Below, in pieces: positions 8,692 through 15,802 of a DNA stretch of 64,000 bases. Each line of letters opens with the position of its first letter. Positions within the stretch are counted from its first letter, which is position 1. The DNA is from Chitinivorax sp. PXF-14 (GTDB lineage: Bacteria > Pseudomonadota > Gammaproteobacteria > Burkholderiales > SCOH01). Location of the stretch: the NCBI RefSeq assembly GCF_040812015.1, contig NZ_JBFNXJ010000019.1, positions 1 through 64,000 of the forward strand, given 5' to 3'. The notes beneath the pieces are model-generated. The model ran no database searches. It was not told where the DNA came from and saw only the letters and a program-made list of their open reading frames with translations. The position numbers were made by a program, and so were the translations under genes.

Positions 8692-9222
8692 CTAGTTTCG
8701 CCGGCGGGCGGTCATCGCCGCGCCGATGCGATTCAGTGTTTGAGCGTCGAGCAGGCGTACGGCCTCGGGGAATACCTCGCGCTCCTCGCGCGCCGCATGG
8801 GCCTGGTAGGTCGCGGCGAACTGCTCGGCGTCGGCCAGCGCCGCTCCCCTGCCCTCGGCCACCGCAGCGAGCTCCGGCTCGATCCGTGTCCACAGGCCGT
8901 GCAGTTGCTGGTGCTCGGCTTCGAGCGCATCCAGCGTTGCCGTCAAGGCGCTGTCCCCTGCTTGCCGCAGGGCGGGAAACAGATCCTGCTCCTCGTCTTC
9001 ATGGTGCTTGGGCGCGGCAATACGGAAATAGCGCAGGATGTTCTCCGCCGCGCGTTTCGCCTGATCGTCGCAGCCATGATCGGGCAGATAGGCGGCGAGC
9101 TTCCGCAGCGTGTCCGTGAAGGCACGCACGCGGCCATGGCAGGCAATCAGCATCTCGATCGGCTCGTCGAGCGAGGGAATGGCGGGGATCAGTGCATCGG
9201 CACTGCGACTGGTCGGCATCAT
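8692..9222 (-). CDS. Hemerythrin HHE-domain protein (second copy)
   Basis: A 176-residue hemerythrin-like protein, distinct in sequence from the one at 8121-8564. Likely iron ligands are H in IACHGRVR, H/E in APKHHEDEEQDLFP, H in EAEHQQLHGLW, and H/E in YQAHAAREEREVFP. It starts with two adjacent ATGs (9222 and 9219), the first overlapping the narL stop by four bases, so it is translationally coupled to narL and forms the third gene of a narX-narL-hemerythrin operon. This ties it to the nitrate/nitrite response. Role (NO/O2 sensing or iron-sulfur repair) is inferred from family and context. Confidence 0.85.
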   Translation of the reverse strand: MMPTSRSADALIPAIPSLDEPIEMLIACHGRVRAFTDTLRKLAAYLPDHGCDDQAKRAAENILRYFRIAAPKHHEDEEQDLFPALRQAGDSALTATLDALEAEHQQLHGLWTRIEPELAAVAEGRGAALADAEQFAATYQAHAAREEREVFPEAVRLLDAQTLNRIGAAMTARRRN

Positions 9223-12778: not shown

Positions 12779-13483
12779 CTATTCGCGGAACTCGAACTGC
12801 TCGAAACGCTCCGCCAGTTGCGCGAGCACGGCAGGCGACGGGCGGAACGGCGGCTGCGTGAGCGCCCTGTCCTGCACCGGTCGGTAGGCCTGCAGCGCGT
12901 AACGGCGTGTACCGAACTCGACCAACTTGTCCGCCAGCGCCAACAGCGATGCGTCGTCGAACAGGCCGGGTTCGAGCGTGGTGCGGCATTCGAAGGCGAC
13001 GCCGGACGCCGCCAGATGACGCAGGCTTTCCCAGGCGGGCTGGGCCGACCCGCGAATGCGCGTCACCGCCTCGTAGTCTTCGGGCAAGGCCTTGATGTCG
13101 AGCCCCACCCAGTCGAGATCGGGCAGCACGTCAGCCAGGCGCGCCGGGTAGATGCCGGCCGTGTGCAGGCCGACGGCGAAGCCGGCTTCACGCGCCTCGC
13201 GGATCGCCGCGCCCAGCGCCGGATCGATGGTTGGCTCGCCCCCCGAGAAGACAATGCCGTCGAGCAGGCCGCGCCGCGTTTCGAGCCAGTCGCGCAGCGC
13301 GGGCCAGCCCGGGCCATCGGCCTGATCGCGCGGCTGCAGGTGCGGGTTGTGGCAATAGCCGCAGCGCCAAGGGCAGCCTTGCACGAACACCACGCACGCC
13401 AGCCGGCCCGGCCAGTCTACCGTGGAGAAACGTGCCAGGCCGCCGATGCGCAGCCGCTCAGCCGAGCTGGCAGCGTGATTCAC
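12779..13483 (-). CDS. nrdG: Anaerobic ribonucleotide reductase activating protein NrdG
   Basis: A 234-residue radical SAM enzyme. The 4Fe-4S/SAM motif CxxxCxxC is present as CPWRCGYC near residue 37, followed by NPHLQ and the glycine-rich SGGEPT strand. It makes a 5'-deoxyadenosyl radical from SAM and abstracts hydrogen from the glycyl residue of class III ribonucleotide reductase. The best start is a GTG at 13483, which lies inside the small glycyl-radical ORF (26-base overlap). This is the longer NrdG form (about 230 residues) seen in many non-enteric bacteria. It is the third gene of nrdD-small ORF-nrdG. Confidence 0.88.
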   Translation of the reverse strand: MNHAASSAERLRIGGLARFSTVDWPGRLACVVFVQGCPWRCGYCHNPHLQPRDQADGPGWPALRDWLETRRGLLDGIVFSGGEPTIDPALGAAIREAREAGFAVGLHTAGIYPARLADVLPDLDWVGLDIKALPEDYEAVTRIRGSAQPAWESLRHLAASGVAFECRTTLEPGLFDDASLLALADKLVEFGTRRYALQAYRPVQDRALTQPPFRPSPAVLAQLAERFEQFEFRE

Positions 13484-13637
13484 GGAAATAGGTCCGCTCG
13501 CCGAACTCGCCCTGCTTGCCGATATTGAACGACGATACCGGGCGGTGATAGCCCATCACGCGCGTCCATACCTCGCAACGCTGGCGCTCGTGCGGCTCCA
13601 GTTGCACGGTGGCTTGGTGTTGATCCTGATAGTTCAT
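13458..13637 (-). CDS. Separate glycyl-radical C-terminal segment of class III ribonucleotide reductase
   Basis: A 59-residue ORF with its own ATG and an AGGAG ribosome site. Its centre reads CEVWTRVMGYHRPVSSFNIG, which matches the glycyl-radical loop (RVxGY) that normally ends NrdD proteins. It begins 45 bases after the nrdD stop and is in the same reading frame as nrdD, with one TGA and about 15 other codons between. The large NrdD upstream ends right after its zinc-finger cysteines and lacks this loop, so the two products together make up a full enzyme. Whether the split is native or the TGA is read through cannot be told from sequence alone. Too short for many gene callers. Confidence 0.82.
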   Translation of the reverse strand: MNYQDQHQATVQLEPHERQRCEVWTRVMGYHRPVSSFNIGKQGEFGERTYFRESRCQLG

Positions 13638-13682
13638 GGCAGTCTCCTGTTGTAGGTCGCAGCACCTTGCTGCGGTTGAAAA

Positions 13683-15695
13683 TCAGCCCGCGGCCTGGCG
13701 CTTGCGGGTCAGAGCCTCGGCATCGCAGGCCGGGCAGAACTCGTGCTCGCCGGCGAGGTAACCGTGCTTCGGGCAGATCGAGAAAGTCGGCGTAACCGTG
13801 ATGTAAGGCAGGCGGAAGCGCGACAGCGAGCGCTTGACGAGCTGCTTGCAGGCCTCTGCCGACGAGATGCGCTCGTTCATGTAGAGGTGCAGCACCGTGC
13901 CGCCGGTATACTTGCGCTGCAGCTCGTCCTGGCGTTCGAGCGCCTCGAACGGGTCGTCGGTGAAGCCGACCGGCAGCTGGCTCGAATTGGTGTAATACGG
14001 CTTGTCGCGCGTGCCGGCCTGCAGGATGCCGGCGTAGCGCTTGCGGTCTTCCTTGGCAAAGCGGTAGGTGGTGCCTTCCGCCGGCGTCGCTTCGAGGTTG
14101 TAGAGATGCCCCGTCTCCTCTTGGAATACGACGATGCGGCTGCGGATATGGTCGAGCAGGCGGCAGGCAAAGGCGTGACCCCACTCGGTGCTGATGTCGT
14201 GCTCGTCGTCGGTGAAGTTACGGATCATCTCATTGATGCCGTTCACGCCCAGCGTGCTGAAGTGGTTGCGCAGCGTGCCGAGGTAGCGCTTGGTGTACGG
14301 AAACAGGCCGTTGTCGATGTGGCGCTGGATCACCTTGCGCTTGAGCTCGAGCGACTGCTTGCCGAGTTCGAGCAACTCGTCGATGCGCCGCAGTGCGCCC
14401 TCTTCATCGCCCTTGTGGACATGGCCGATGCGCGCGCAGTTGATCGTCACCACGCCCAGGCTGCCAGTCTGTTCGGCCGAGCCGAACAGGCCGTTGCCGC
14501 GCTTCAGCAGCTCGCGCAGATCGAGCTGCAGGCGGCAGCACATCGAGCGGATCATGTTCGGCTTGAGCTCGGAGTTGAGGAAGTTCTGGAAATACGGCAG
14601 GCCGTACTTGGCGGTCATGTCGAACAGCAGCTCGGCGTTCTCGCTTTCCCAGGCAAAATCCTCGGTGATGTTGTAGGTCGGGATCGGGAAGGTGAACGCG
14701 CGGCCCTTGGCGTCGCCCGCCATCATCACCTCGATGTAGGCGCGGTTGATCATGTCCATCTCGGCCTGCAGCTCGCCATAGGTGAACGGCATCTCCACGC
14801 CGCCGACATAGGGCACCTGCTCGCGCAGATCTTCCGGGCACACCCAGTCGAAGGTCAGGTTGGTGAACGGCGTTTGCGTGCCCCAGCGGCTTGGCACGTT
14901 GAGGTTGTAAATCAGTTCCTGGATGCCCTGCTTGACGTCGGCGTAGCTCAGATTGTCCTTGCGGATGAACGGCGCCATATAGGTATCGAAGGAGCTGAAC
15001 GCCTGCGCGCCGGCCCACTCGTTCTGCAGCGTGCCGAGGAAGTTGACGATCTGCCCCACGGCGCTCGACAGGTGCTTCGGCGGCGATGCCTCGACCTTGC
15101 CCGGCACGCCGTTGAGGCCCTCGTGCAGCAGGGTGCGCAGGCTCCAGCCGGCACAATAGCCCGACAGCATGTCGAGATCGTGGATATGGATATCGGCCTC
15201 GCGATGGGCCTCGCCCACGGCCGGCGGGTAGACGTGCGACAGCCAGTAGTTGGCGACGACCTTGCCCGATACATTGAGGATCAGCCCGCCCAGGCTGTAG
15301 CCCTGGTTTGCATTGGCGTTGACGCGCCAGTCCTGCTGCTCGAGGTATTCGTTGATCGAGCTGGCGACGTCGACAACCGTCTTCTTGTCGGCGCGCAGCT
15401 TGGCATGCTGTTCGCGGTAGACGATGTAGGCACGCGCGGTGCGGATATGGCCGGCGGCGAACAAGGTCTGCTCGACCGCGTCCTGAATATTCTCGATGGT
15501 CGGCACATTCCGGCCATAGCGATCGATCAGCGTCTTCACCACCTGGTTGGTCAGCCGCTCGGCTTCCGCCACACCGAATTCGGCGCTCGCGTTGCTCGCC
15601 TGGACCAGTGCATTGCGAATCTTGCCGGCATCGAAAGTTACCTGCTGCCCATCCCGCTTGATCACTGCGCGCGGTAAAGTCAGTACCTCGTTCAT
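13683..15695 (-). CDS. nrdD: Anaerobic ribonucleoside-triphosphate reductase, large part
   Basis: A 670-residue class III ribonucleotide reductase chain that makes dNTPs without oxygen. The start at 15695 follows GGAGGG. An N-terminal ATP-cone (residues about 5-100) gives allosteric control. Cysteines of the active site are seen in LSGYCAGWSLRT and RSMCCRLQLD. The C-terminal zinc-binding cysteines are present (CPKHGYLAGEHEFCPACD). The chain then stops; the glycyl-radical loop RVMGY lies on the next ORF. Two NrdR boxes and an FNR-like pair of half-sites lie upstream, consistent with repression by NrdR and induction without oxygen. Confidence 0.92.
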   Translation of the reverse strand: MNEVLTLPRAVIKRDGQQVTFDAGKIRNALVQASNASAEFGVAEAERLTNQVVKTLIDRYGRNVPTIENIQDAVEQTLFAAGHIRTARAYIVYREQHAKLRADKKTVVDVASSINEYLEQQDWRVNANANQGYSLGGLILNVSGKVVANYWLSHVYPPAVGEAHREADIHIHDLDMLSGYCAGWSLRTLLHEGLNGVPGKVEASPPKHLSSAVGQIVNFLGTLQNEWAGAQAFSSFDTYMAPFIRKDNLSYADVKQGIQELIYNLNVPSRWGTQTPFTNLTFDWVCPEDLREQVPYVGGVEMPFTYGELQAEMDMINRAYIEVMMAGDAKGRAFTFPIPTYNITEDFAWESENAELLFDMTAKYGLPYFQNFLNSELKPNMIRSMCCRLQLDLRELLKRGNGLFGSAEQTGSLGVVTINCARIGHVHKGDEEGALRRIDELLELGKQSLELKRKVIQRHIDNGLFPYTKRYLGTLRNHFSTLGVNGINEMIRNFTDDEHDISTEWGHAFACRLLDHIRSRIVVFQEETGHLYNLEATPAEGTTYRFAKEDRKRYAGILQAGTRDKPYYTNSSQLPVGFTDDPFEALERQDELQRKYTGGTVLHLYMNERISSAEACKQLVKRSLSRFRLPYITVTPTFSICPKHGYLAGEHEFCPACDAEALTRKRQAAG

Positions 15696-15788: not shown

Positions 15789-15802
15789 TTGAGGCAGGTC
15801 AA
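15789..15802 (-). promoter_or_regulatory. FNR/Dnr-like half-sites upstream of nrdD
   Basis: TTGAGGCAGGTCAA contains TTGA and TCAA separated by six bases, the correct FNR geometry, but the inner positions are G rather than T and A (eight of ten matches). Its centre lies 100 bases upstream of the nrdD ATG, on the far side of both NrdR boxes. Confidence 0.45.

Follow-up and report, generated by a model that had tools for sequence, protein, structure and literature searches.

Class III (anaerobic) ribonucleotide reductases (RNRs) have been described as one-chain NrdD proteins partnered by NrdG, with examples from Prevotella copri (8p2s), Thermotoga maritima (4coi/4u3e) and phage T4 (1h7a). In class III enzymes, the radical is transferred from the glycyl residue to a cysteine of the finger loop. 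The nrdD locus of Chitinivorax sp. PXF-14, which lies in the 64,000-nucleotide stretch analysed here (contig NZ_JBFNXJ010000019.1, positions 1 to 64,000; the window), shares with the one-chain systems the fold, the finger-loop cysteines, the zinc motif, the glycyl-radical motif and the NrdG partner. It differs from them in that the radical glycine resides on a second polypeptide and in that the zinc motif of the split family is Cys3His. We conclude, with a probability of about 0.93, that the locus encodes a class III RNR whose catalytic protein is permanently split over two polypeptides. The two parts are separate genes, conserved over a large clade and under purifying selection in the tested pairs, and the small one has its own start and ribosome site. 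We infer that the two chains are translated separately and dock in the cell.

Several known systems resemble this arrangement in part. YfiD (GrcA) of Escherichia coli and Y06I of phage T4 are likewise small glycyl-radical proteins, bacterial and phage encoded, that complete a large enzyme (PMC8683613). They are, however, of the pyruvate formate-lyase (PFL) type and repair a complete enzyme after oxygen damage, whereas the small nrdD product is of the NrdD type and should be obligatory in the split clade. Passages of the same paper (Andorfer et al. 2021, PMC8683613) name YfiD and Y06I as the only validated PFL spare parts, hold others possible and do not settle if glycyl-radical enzymes other than PFL have spare parts as well. 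In Pseudomonas aeruginosa, NrdJa and NrdJb (Crona 2015, as cited in PMC9669993) also distribute a catalytic RNR protein over two genes, but the enzyme is class II and B12 dependent, and the split piece, as described in the relevant passages of PMC9669993, carries IscU-like and zinc domains and no radical residue. Phage nrdD and nrdA genes divided by introns, inteins or homing endonucleases (PMC3653736) are mostly put down to mobile inserts, and the passages of that paper dealing with them contain no lone glycyl-radical peptide. We found no description of a two-gene NrdD or of an NrdD-type lone glycyl-radical peptide in the open-access literature, which leaves absence from print unproven. The novelty lies not in the protein families, which are known, but in the two-chain form of the class III enzyme, as far as the open-access literature shows. 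The small open reading frame (ORF) itself is often annotated, already under the name nrdD in Cupriavidus necator megaplasmid pHG1 and several other plasmids and as hypothetical or not at all elsewhere; what is missing, as far as our literature searches show, is a description of the two-chain enzyme.

On the minus strand of the window, the large nrdD gene is followed by a 59-residue ORF and then by nrdG (Table 1). The two ORFs share one frame; the ATG comes 48 nt after the first base of the TGA, and no other stop intervenes. The large chain matches the ATP-cone profile PF03477 at residues 10 to 98 and positions 2 to 530 of the 562 positions of the NRDD profile PF13597 (E 1.4e-174), giving it the barrel domain expected of a class III RNR. 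The small chain matches positions 530 to 562 of PF13597 (E 8.7e-8, exceeding the gathering score), which is the end missing from the large chain; no other family matched it at E 0.1, and there was no match to a PFL-type glycyl-radical domain. It is a stand-alone glycyl-radical domain (GRD) like GrcA/YfiD, and the usual layout, with the radical glycine on the barrel polypeptide, is replaced by separate genes whose frames vary among relatives. The partner activase is present as well, matching NCBIfam NrdG2 (E 2.3e-56). NRDD occurs at a single place in the 4.42-Mb genome, as these two parts, with one copy of the small ORF; PF02867 matches mark two other ribonucleotide reductase catalytic genes. 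The initial annotation had placed an RVMGY loop on its own 59-residue ORF with AGGAG and ATG, in frame past one TGA, and the nrdG start inside the small gene, and both statements agree with the coordinates read directly. It had also described the large chain as stopping right after its zinc-finger cysteines; the chain does end after the zinc motif, but this consists of three cysteines and one histidine (Cys-x2-His...Cys-x2-Cys).

In the window, no further stop interrupts the frame between the TGA and the end of the small ORF, as would be required if the TGA were read through or recoded to give one full-length NrdD, and the initial annotation had left the choice between two polypeptides and a bypassed TGA undecided. 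We compared 109 split loci, without dereplication. Relative to the large ORF, the small one is in frame 0 in 23 of them, in +1 in 42 and in +2 in 44, and hence out of frame in 86; the stop codon of the large gene is TGA in 72, TAA in 25 and TAG in 12, the last two together accounting for 37. A conserved in-frame TGA with a conserved frame across it, the mark of recoding, was not found over these loci. In one relative (G012, L036) the small gene adjoins nrdG and the large nrdD gene is approximately 9 kb off. The chosen start of the small ORF was ATG in 107/109 loci and was preceded by a Shine-Dalgarno (SD)-like word in 106/109, with a median gap of 33 nt between the genes. Because this choice of start favours SD sites, the identical choice was made at random places inside the large gene as a control: an ATG with a strong SD was obtained at 93/109 split loci versus 31 of 2,140 control picks (1.4%). 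Bypass of the TGA as a general mechanism is refuted by the frames, the stops, the distance in G012 and the rate of ATG plus SD, and we regard a readthrough product as very unlikely; of the two options considered at the outset, that of two polypeptides is retained. The proposed comparison of related genomes was informative in this respect, as the small ORF, its start and its SD site persist and the frame, the spacing and the stop itself (TGA, TAA or TAG) vary. One locus, L141 (Candidatus Thiothrix singaporensis), at first suggested possible readthrough, since it lacked a good start and had a single TGA in frame. Its sequence, however, has an ATG with AGGAGG ahead of it and an ambiguous N behind it; the locus was treated as uninformative and is still counted among the 109.

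The single in-frame stop that parts the two pieces in the window could also be put down to decay of nrdD or to an error of sequencing or assembly. Zinc motif and radical loop, however, are separated at this same place in independent genomes and plasmids with differing stops and frames. In all 14 close pairs, dN was well below dS for the GRD core, with few changes in this short core, and the large gene behaved likewise. The initial annotation had reckoned with a second full-length nrdD elsewhere and with decay in relatives; the locus is the sole nrdD in the genome, and purifying selection acts on both genes in close pairs. A pseudogene or sequencing error was rejected on account of the relatives, the selection and the single nrdD, and we consider decay or error extremely improbable. 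Alternatively, the small protein might serve solely to repair an NrdD that is complete without it, much as YfiD serves PFL, a role that would suit a stand-alone glycyl-radical domain of which lone extra copies exist. Since the large chain in split genomes ends before the glycine, the small chain should be obligatory and not spare, and a mere repair role is hardly credible for it.

An nrdG homologue is found on the same strand in 107/109 split loci, and its start, extrapolated from the alignment, lies 150 nt or less from the small stop in 102/109, with a median of -12 nt, that is, an overlap. Annotated records of relatives have the gene order of the window in common, with overlaps between small gene and nrdG of 17 nt in pHG1, 35 in Sulfuricurvum, 44 in Bradyrhizobium, 8 in Paracoccus and 50 in Aquabacterium.

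The initial annotation had treated the split as a local oddity. It is instead the architecture of a whole clade, to which lone copies carried by phages are added. In a search of 60 genomes of relatives, the own one included, NRDD was detected in 19: 16 split, 2 fused only and 1 (G004) cut by a contig end. A phylum-wide draw yielded NRDD in 34 of 299 genomes, 10 of them classified as split. Within the window's order (Burkholderiales), 399 genomes were searched with the profile A1, built from 18 small proteins, and 114 matched, 105 of them at E<1e-20. Six of these 105, belonging to one genus, hold the domain in a long frame of 617 to 729 aa, and the one checked (G470, L255) is fused; four others with frames of 583 to 778 aa were checked and are split (L253, L254, L256, L257). 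From at least 571 named loci encoding a relative, 80 were kept, near-duplicates included. Large and small chains are on separate ORFs in 78 of these, some with the large gene cut by a contig end or frameshifted, and 2 have the small gene only. Their hosts are mostly Betaproteobacteria, together with other Proteobacteria, one Geobacteraceae metagenome-assembled genome (MAG) and two MAGs binned as Verrucomicrobiota; plasmid matches extend the range to Alphaproteobacteria and one Campylobacterota plasmid. The two NRDD parts of G346 share a reading frame and are separated by a gap; the search for a GRD of this type found none there, and G346 was left unclassified. Thirty of 148 loci were scored as having the large gene only. 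Except for L048 (G004), L178 (G346) and L182, PF13597 covers positions 1 to 562 or nearly so in these, their radical domain being beyond the reach of the narrow GRD profile, and they entered the tree as fused.

In a FastTree phylogeny of 133 large chains, the 99 split rows group into a single cluster, which also contains 3 fused rows, namely two near-identical plasmid copies from Acidiphilium/Acidithiobacillus and one from Actinomyces oris. Three other fused rows (a Geoalkalibacter plasmid, G085 and G170) branch just outside it. Twelve loci had been omitted, 10 of them split: L048, L093, L096, L103, L128, L131, L135, L147, L149, L159 and L165 as cut, frameshifted or duplicate, and L182 as too short. 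With an extended set without the distant fused rows (110 split, 7 fused), the fewest changes amount to 4, and the fused L255 falls among split rows. The best reading of these trees is one old split with a few later re-fusions; the number and direction of events are unsure because several branches are weak and long branches meet.

By homology, the radical glycine of the small protein is Gly29. Cys21, Glu22 and the stretch Trp24-Thr-Arg-Val-Met-Gly29-Tyr-His-Arg-Pro33, which includes the glycyl-radical motif RVxGY, are invariant in 18/18 cellular small proteins; in alignment A3, which includes more distant rows, Cys21 is replaced by Thr in 2 of the 27 rows holding the position. All 32 A3 rows that cover the finger loop (SMCCR) and the zinc motif (CPxHGY...C..C) of the large chain retain the Cys, Met and His residues of these motifs. 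Passages of PMC9669993 link the finger-loop methionine to formate-dependent reduction. For structure prediction, the TGA was read as W, and the resulting pseudo-joined chain of 744 residues was modelled by AlphaFold2 with 44 rows. The mean pLDDT was 84.6 and the pTM 0.79, with blocks over residues 701 to 740 averaging 82 to 95. In VIA-align 2, the model superposed on P. copri NrdD 8p2s with Z 34.8 and 2.5 A over 544 residues (model range 108-737) and on T. maritima 4u3e with Z 32.2 (model range 100-741), and Gly714 of the joined model is inside both ranges. The A1 profile had no match to PDB sequences at E 0.1.

In the mechanism that we propose, large and small chains would be made from one operon, and small chain and NrdG would be translationally coupled because their genes overlap. 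The nucleotide sites lie on the large chain, together with the finger-loop cysteines and the zinc motif. The peptide of approximately 60 residues would fill the groove taken by the C-terminal domain in one-chain NrdD, which would bring the glycyl radical near the finger-loop cysteine; NrdG would install the radical on the glycine of the peptide, from where it would move on to that cysteine. If the enzyme normally consists of two proteins, a detachable subunit of about 60 residues is able to carry the radical of a glycyl-radical enzyme, and an NrdD annotated at about 670 aa in split-type bacteria is not the whole enzyme. According to passages of PMC3019208, oxygen destroys class III enzymes by cutting at the radical glycine. 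The split enzyme may for this reason lose only a 7-kDa part, which would then presumably be replaceable once cleaved; because of the same cut, such a piece would be a cheap means of oxygen survival for facultative anaerobes, for example denitrifiers.

An indication of activity in a cell comes from C. necator, whose megaplasmid pHG1 carries the same three genes, encoding proteins of 676 aa and 66 aa and NrdG. The computed mass of the pHG1 large chain is 76.2 kDa. The abstract of Siedow 1999 reportedly gives 76.2 kDa for NrdD, which would fit a chain without the radical domain. As stated in passages of PMC2864759, citing Siedow 1999, the pHG1 NrdDG is essential for complete denitrification in C. 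necator, and vitamin B12 counters the defect of a pHG1-free mutant. Given that the same arrangement is reported essential there, the split enzyme is very likely active in a cell.

Several points weigh against the two-chain reading. The C. necator genetics, known here through passages of the citing paper (PMC2864759), are at operon level. In the structure model, the region 386 to 405, adjoining and partly in the MCCR of the finger loop, has a pLDDT below 50, so the glycine-to-cysteine contact is left without definition, and an artificially joined chain shows the compatibility of the pieces, not binding. Some close relatives are fused (plasmids of Acidiphilium, Acidithiobacillus and Actinomyces; G470), so the split is not needed for function. 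The 80 named loci, moreover, were picked by similarity to split-type small proteins, and fused relatives are under-sampled among them.

Table 1. Features of the nrdD locus in the window, extra copies of the small gene and weak matches in deposited phages
Feature	Position or E value	Strand	Remarks
nrdD large chain, 670 aa	13683..15695	-	ATP-cone; barrel domain (MCCR in finger loop); Cys3His zinc motif at C-terminus
TGA of nrdD large gene	13685-13683	-	read in sequence
Small nrdD gene, 59-aa glycyl-radical subunit, RCEVWTRVMGYHRP	13458..13637	-	ATG at 13637, stop 13460-13458
Shine-Dalgarno AGGAG of small gene	13648-13644	-	6 nt ahead of ATG; SD-like sites also in relatives
nrdG (radical-SAM activase, NrdG2 type)	12779..13483	-	GTG start at 13483, 26-nt overlap with small gene
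Putative FNR/Anr-type box TTGACCTGCCTCAA upstream of nrdD	15789..15802	-	read in sequence by eye
L241, extra copy			neighbours holin, endolysin, Rz
L245, extra copy			neighbour endolysin; integrase 2 kb on
L250, extra copy			neighbours endolysin, Rz
L247, extra copy			neighbour neck gene
L239, extra copy			near gene matching phage helicase family
L248, extra copy			near gene matching phage family of unknown function
L243, extra copy			chromosomal-looking genes; NrdG-like or other radical-SAM fragment ~2 kb away
Archaeal virus ANMV-1 (L342:2180-2614)	best E 7e-3, weak		lone 144-aa protein
Faecal phage (L343, MT835493.1 46000-50000)	best E 4e-3, weak		complete NrdD
Bajarodcaudo virus 1, 98.6-kb record	E 0.3, weak		annotated as NrdD
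Six Vibrio phages	E 0.4, weak		NrdD annotation in five; sixth record unannotated

Lone copies of the small gene were encountered in some bacterial genomes. Of the 105 genomes matched at E<1e-20 in the window's order, 7 carry it more than once, with 8 extra copies in total. No NrdD core was found within the stretch examined around any of the 8, L251 being near a contig start, and 4/8 adjoin phage lysis or neck genes (Table 1). Judging by their neighbours, the copies L241, L245 and L250 appear prophage-like. In Magnetospirillum fulvum, a normal pair is accompanied by a lone copy (L092:3468-3665) directly upstream of class I nrdA-nrdB. In its family, the small gene occurs in 6 of 55 genomes, with two copies in M. 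fulvum alone, and no lone copy upstream of nrdAB was found in the 54 other genomes searched. Three forms coexist in the genome of Sutterella sp. UBA1442, namely NrdD in one chain, a split pair and a lone small gene, and an Allochromatium vinosum plasmid holds a lone copy (plasmid record only).

A scan of IMG/VR returned 135 relatives, of which 80 were kept (L258-L337), several of them near-identical. At all 80 loci the small ORF is unaccompanied: neither an NrdD core nor NrdG occurs in the flanking sequence examined, which is short in some cases; 30 of these 80 virus records were searched whole, and each held only this end of NRDD, although the records may be fragments. From 24 virus loci, 120 neighbouring proteins were listed, and 76 from 22 loci were scanned. 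Helicases, integrases, terminases, DNA polymerases and tape-measure proteins, as well as a portal protein, are among the families matched and speak for a phage context of the viral small genes. TRVMGY is kept in the viral sequences, the search pattern having demanded most of the motif and the position count the whole of it. Outside the demanded motif, the arginines at -11, +3 and +19 and the proline at +4 relative to the glycine are kept in 78/78 viral cores and the cysteine at -8 in 74/78. All five viral proteins scanned match PF13597 at about positions 530 to 562 as well as the PHROG family phrog_4132 (unknown function), which the small protein of the window also matches; the family thereby gains a suggested function.

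If the splitting of NrdD made the radical peptide exchangeable, these lone copies would have a role: phage and bacterial copies would plug into the host NrdD and be charged by the host NrdG, keeping or restarting anaerobic DNA-precursor synthesis during infection or after oxygen damage. We hold the chances of this to be about evenly balanced. The lone phage and genomic copies would then supply the host NrdD in the same way as a replacement for an oxygen-cleaved peptide. Lone phage copies may alternatively act as decoys; the kept radical motif argues for function. If the exchange is real, NrdD-type lone peptides in phages are the RNR counterpart of the PFL spare parts YfiD and T4 Y06I. The lone copies, many of them in virus contigs, make the spare-part question directly testable for ribonucleotide reductase.

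Among 50,697 deposited phage records, the small protein of the window had no match at 1e-3. Two phage small proteins searched against deposited phages to E 1 gave weak matches only (Table 1). By eye, the ANMV-1 protein contains two CxxC pairs, which are zinc-finger-like, and an NrdD-type glycyl-radical motif, and the frame in MT835493.1 continues from NrdD into a glutaredoxin-like domain.

The putative box TTGACCTGCCTCAA ahead of nrdD may be of the FNR/Anr type. Between positions 9219 and 17974 of the window, nrdD is found near regulators that resemble NarX/NarL and Fnr by eye and near a U32-peptidase gene (PF01136; UbiU/UbiV-like by eye), and the genes of this region look like a cluster of anaerobic lifestyle. 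In G012, a U32-peptidase gene is located between the large and small nrdD genes.

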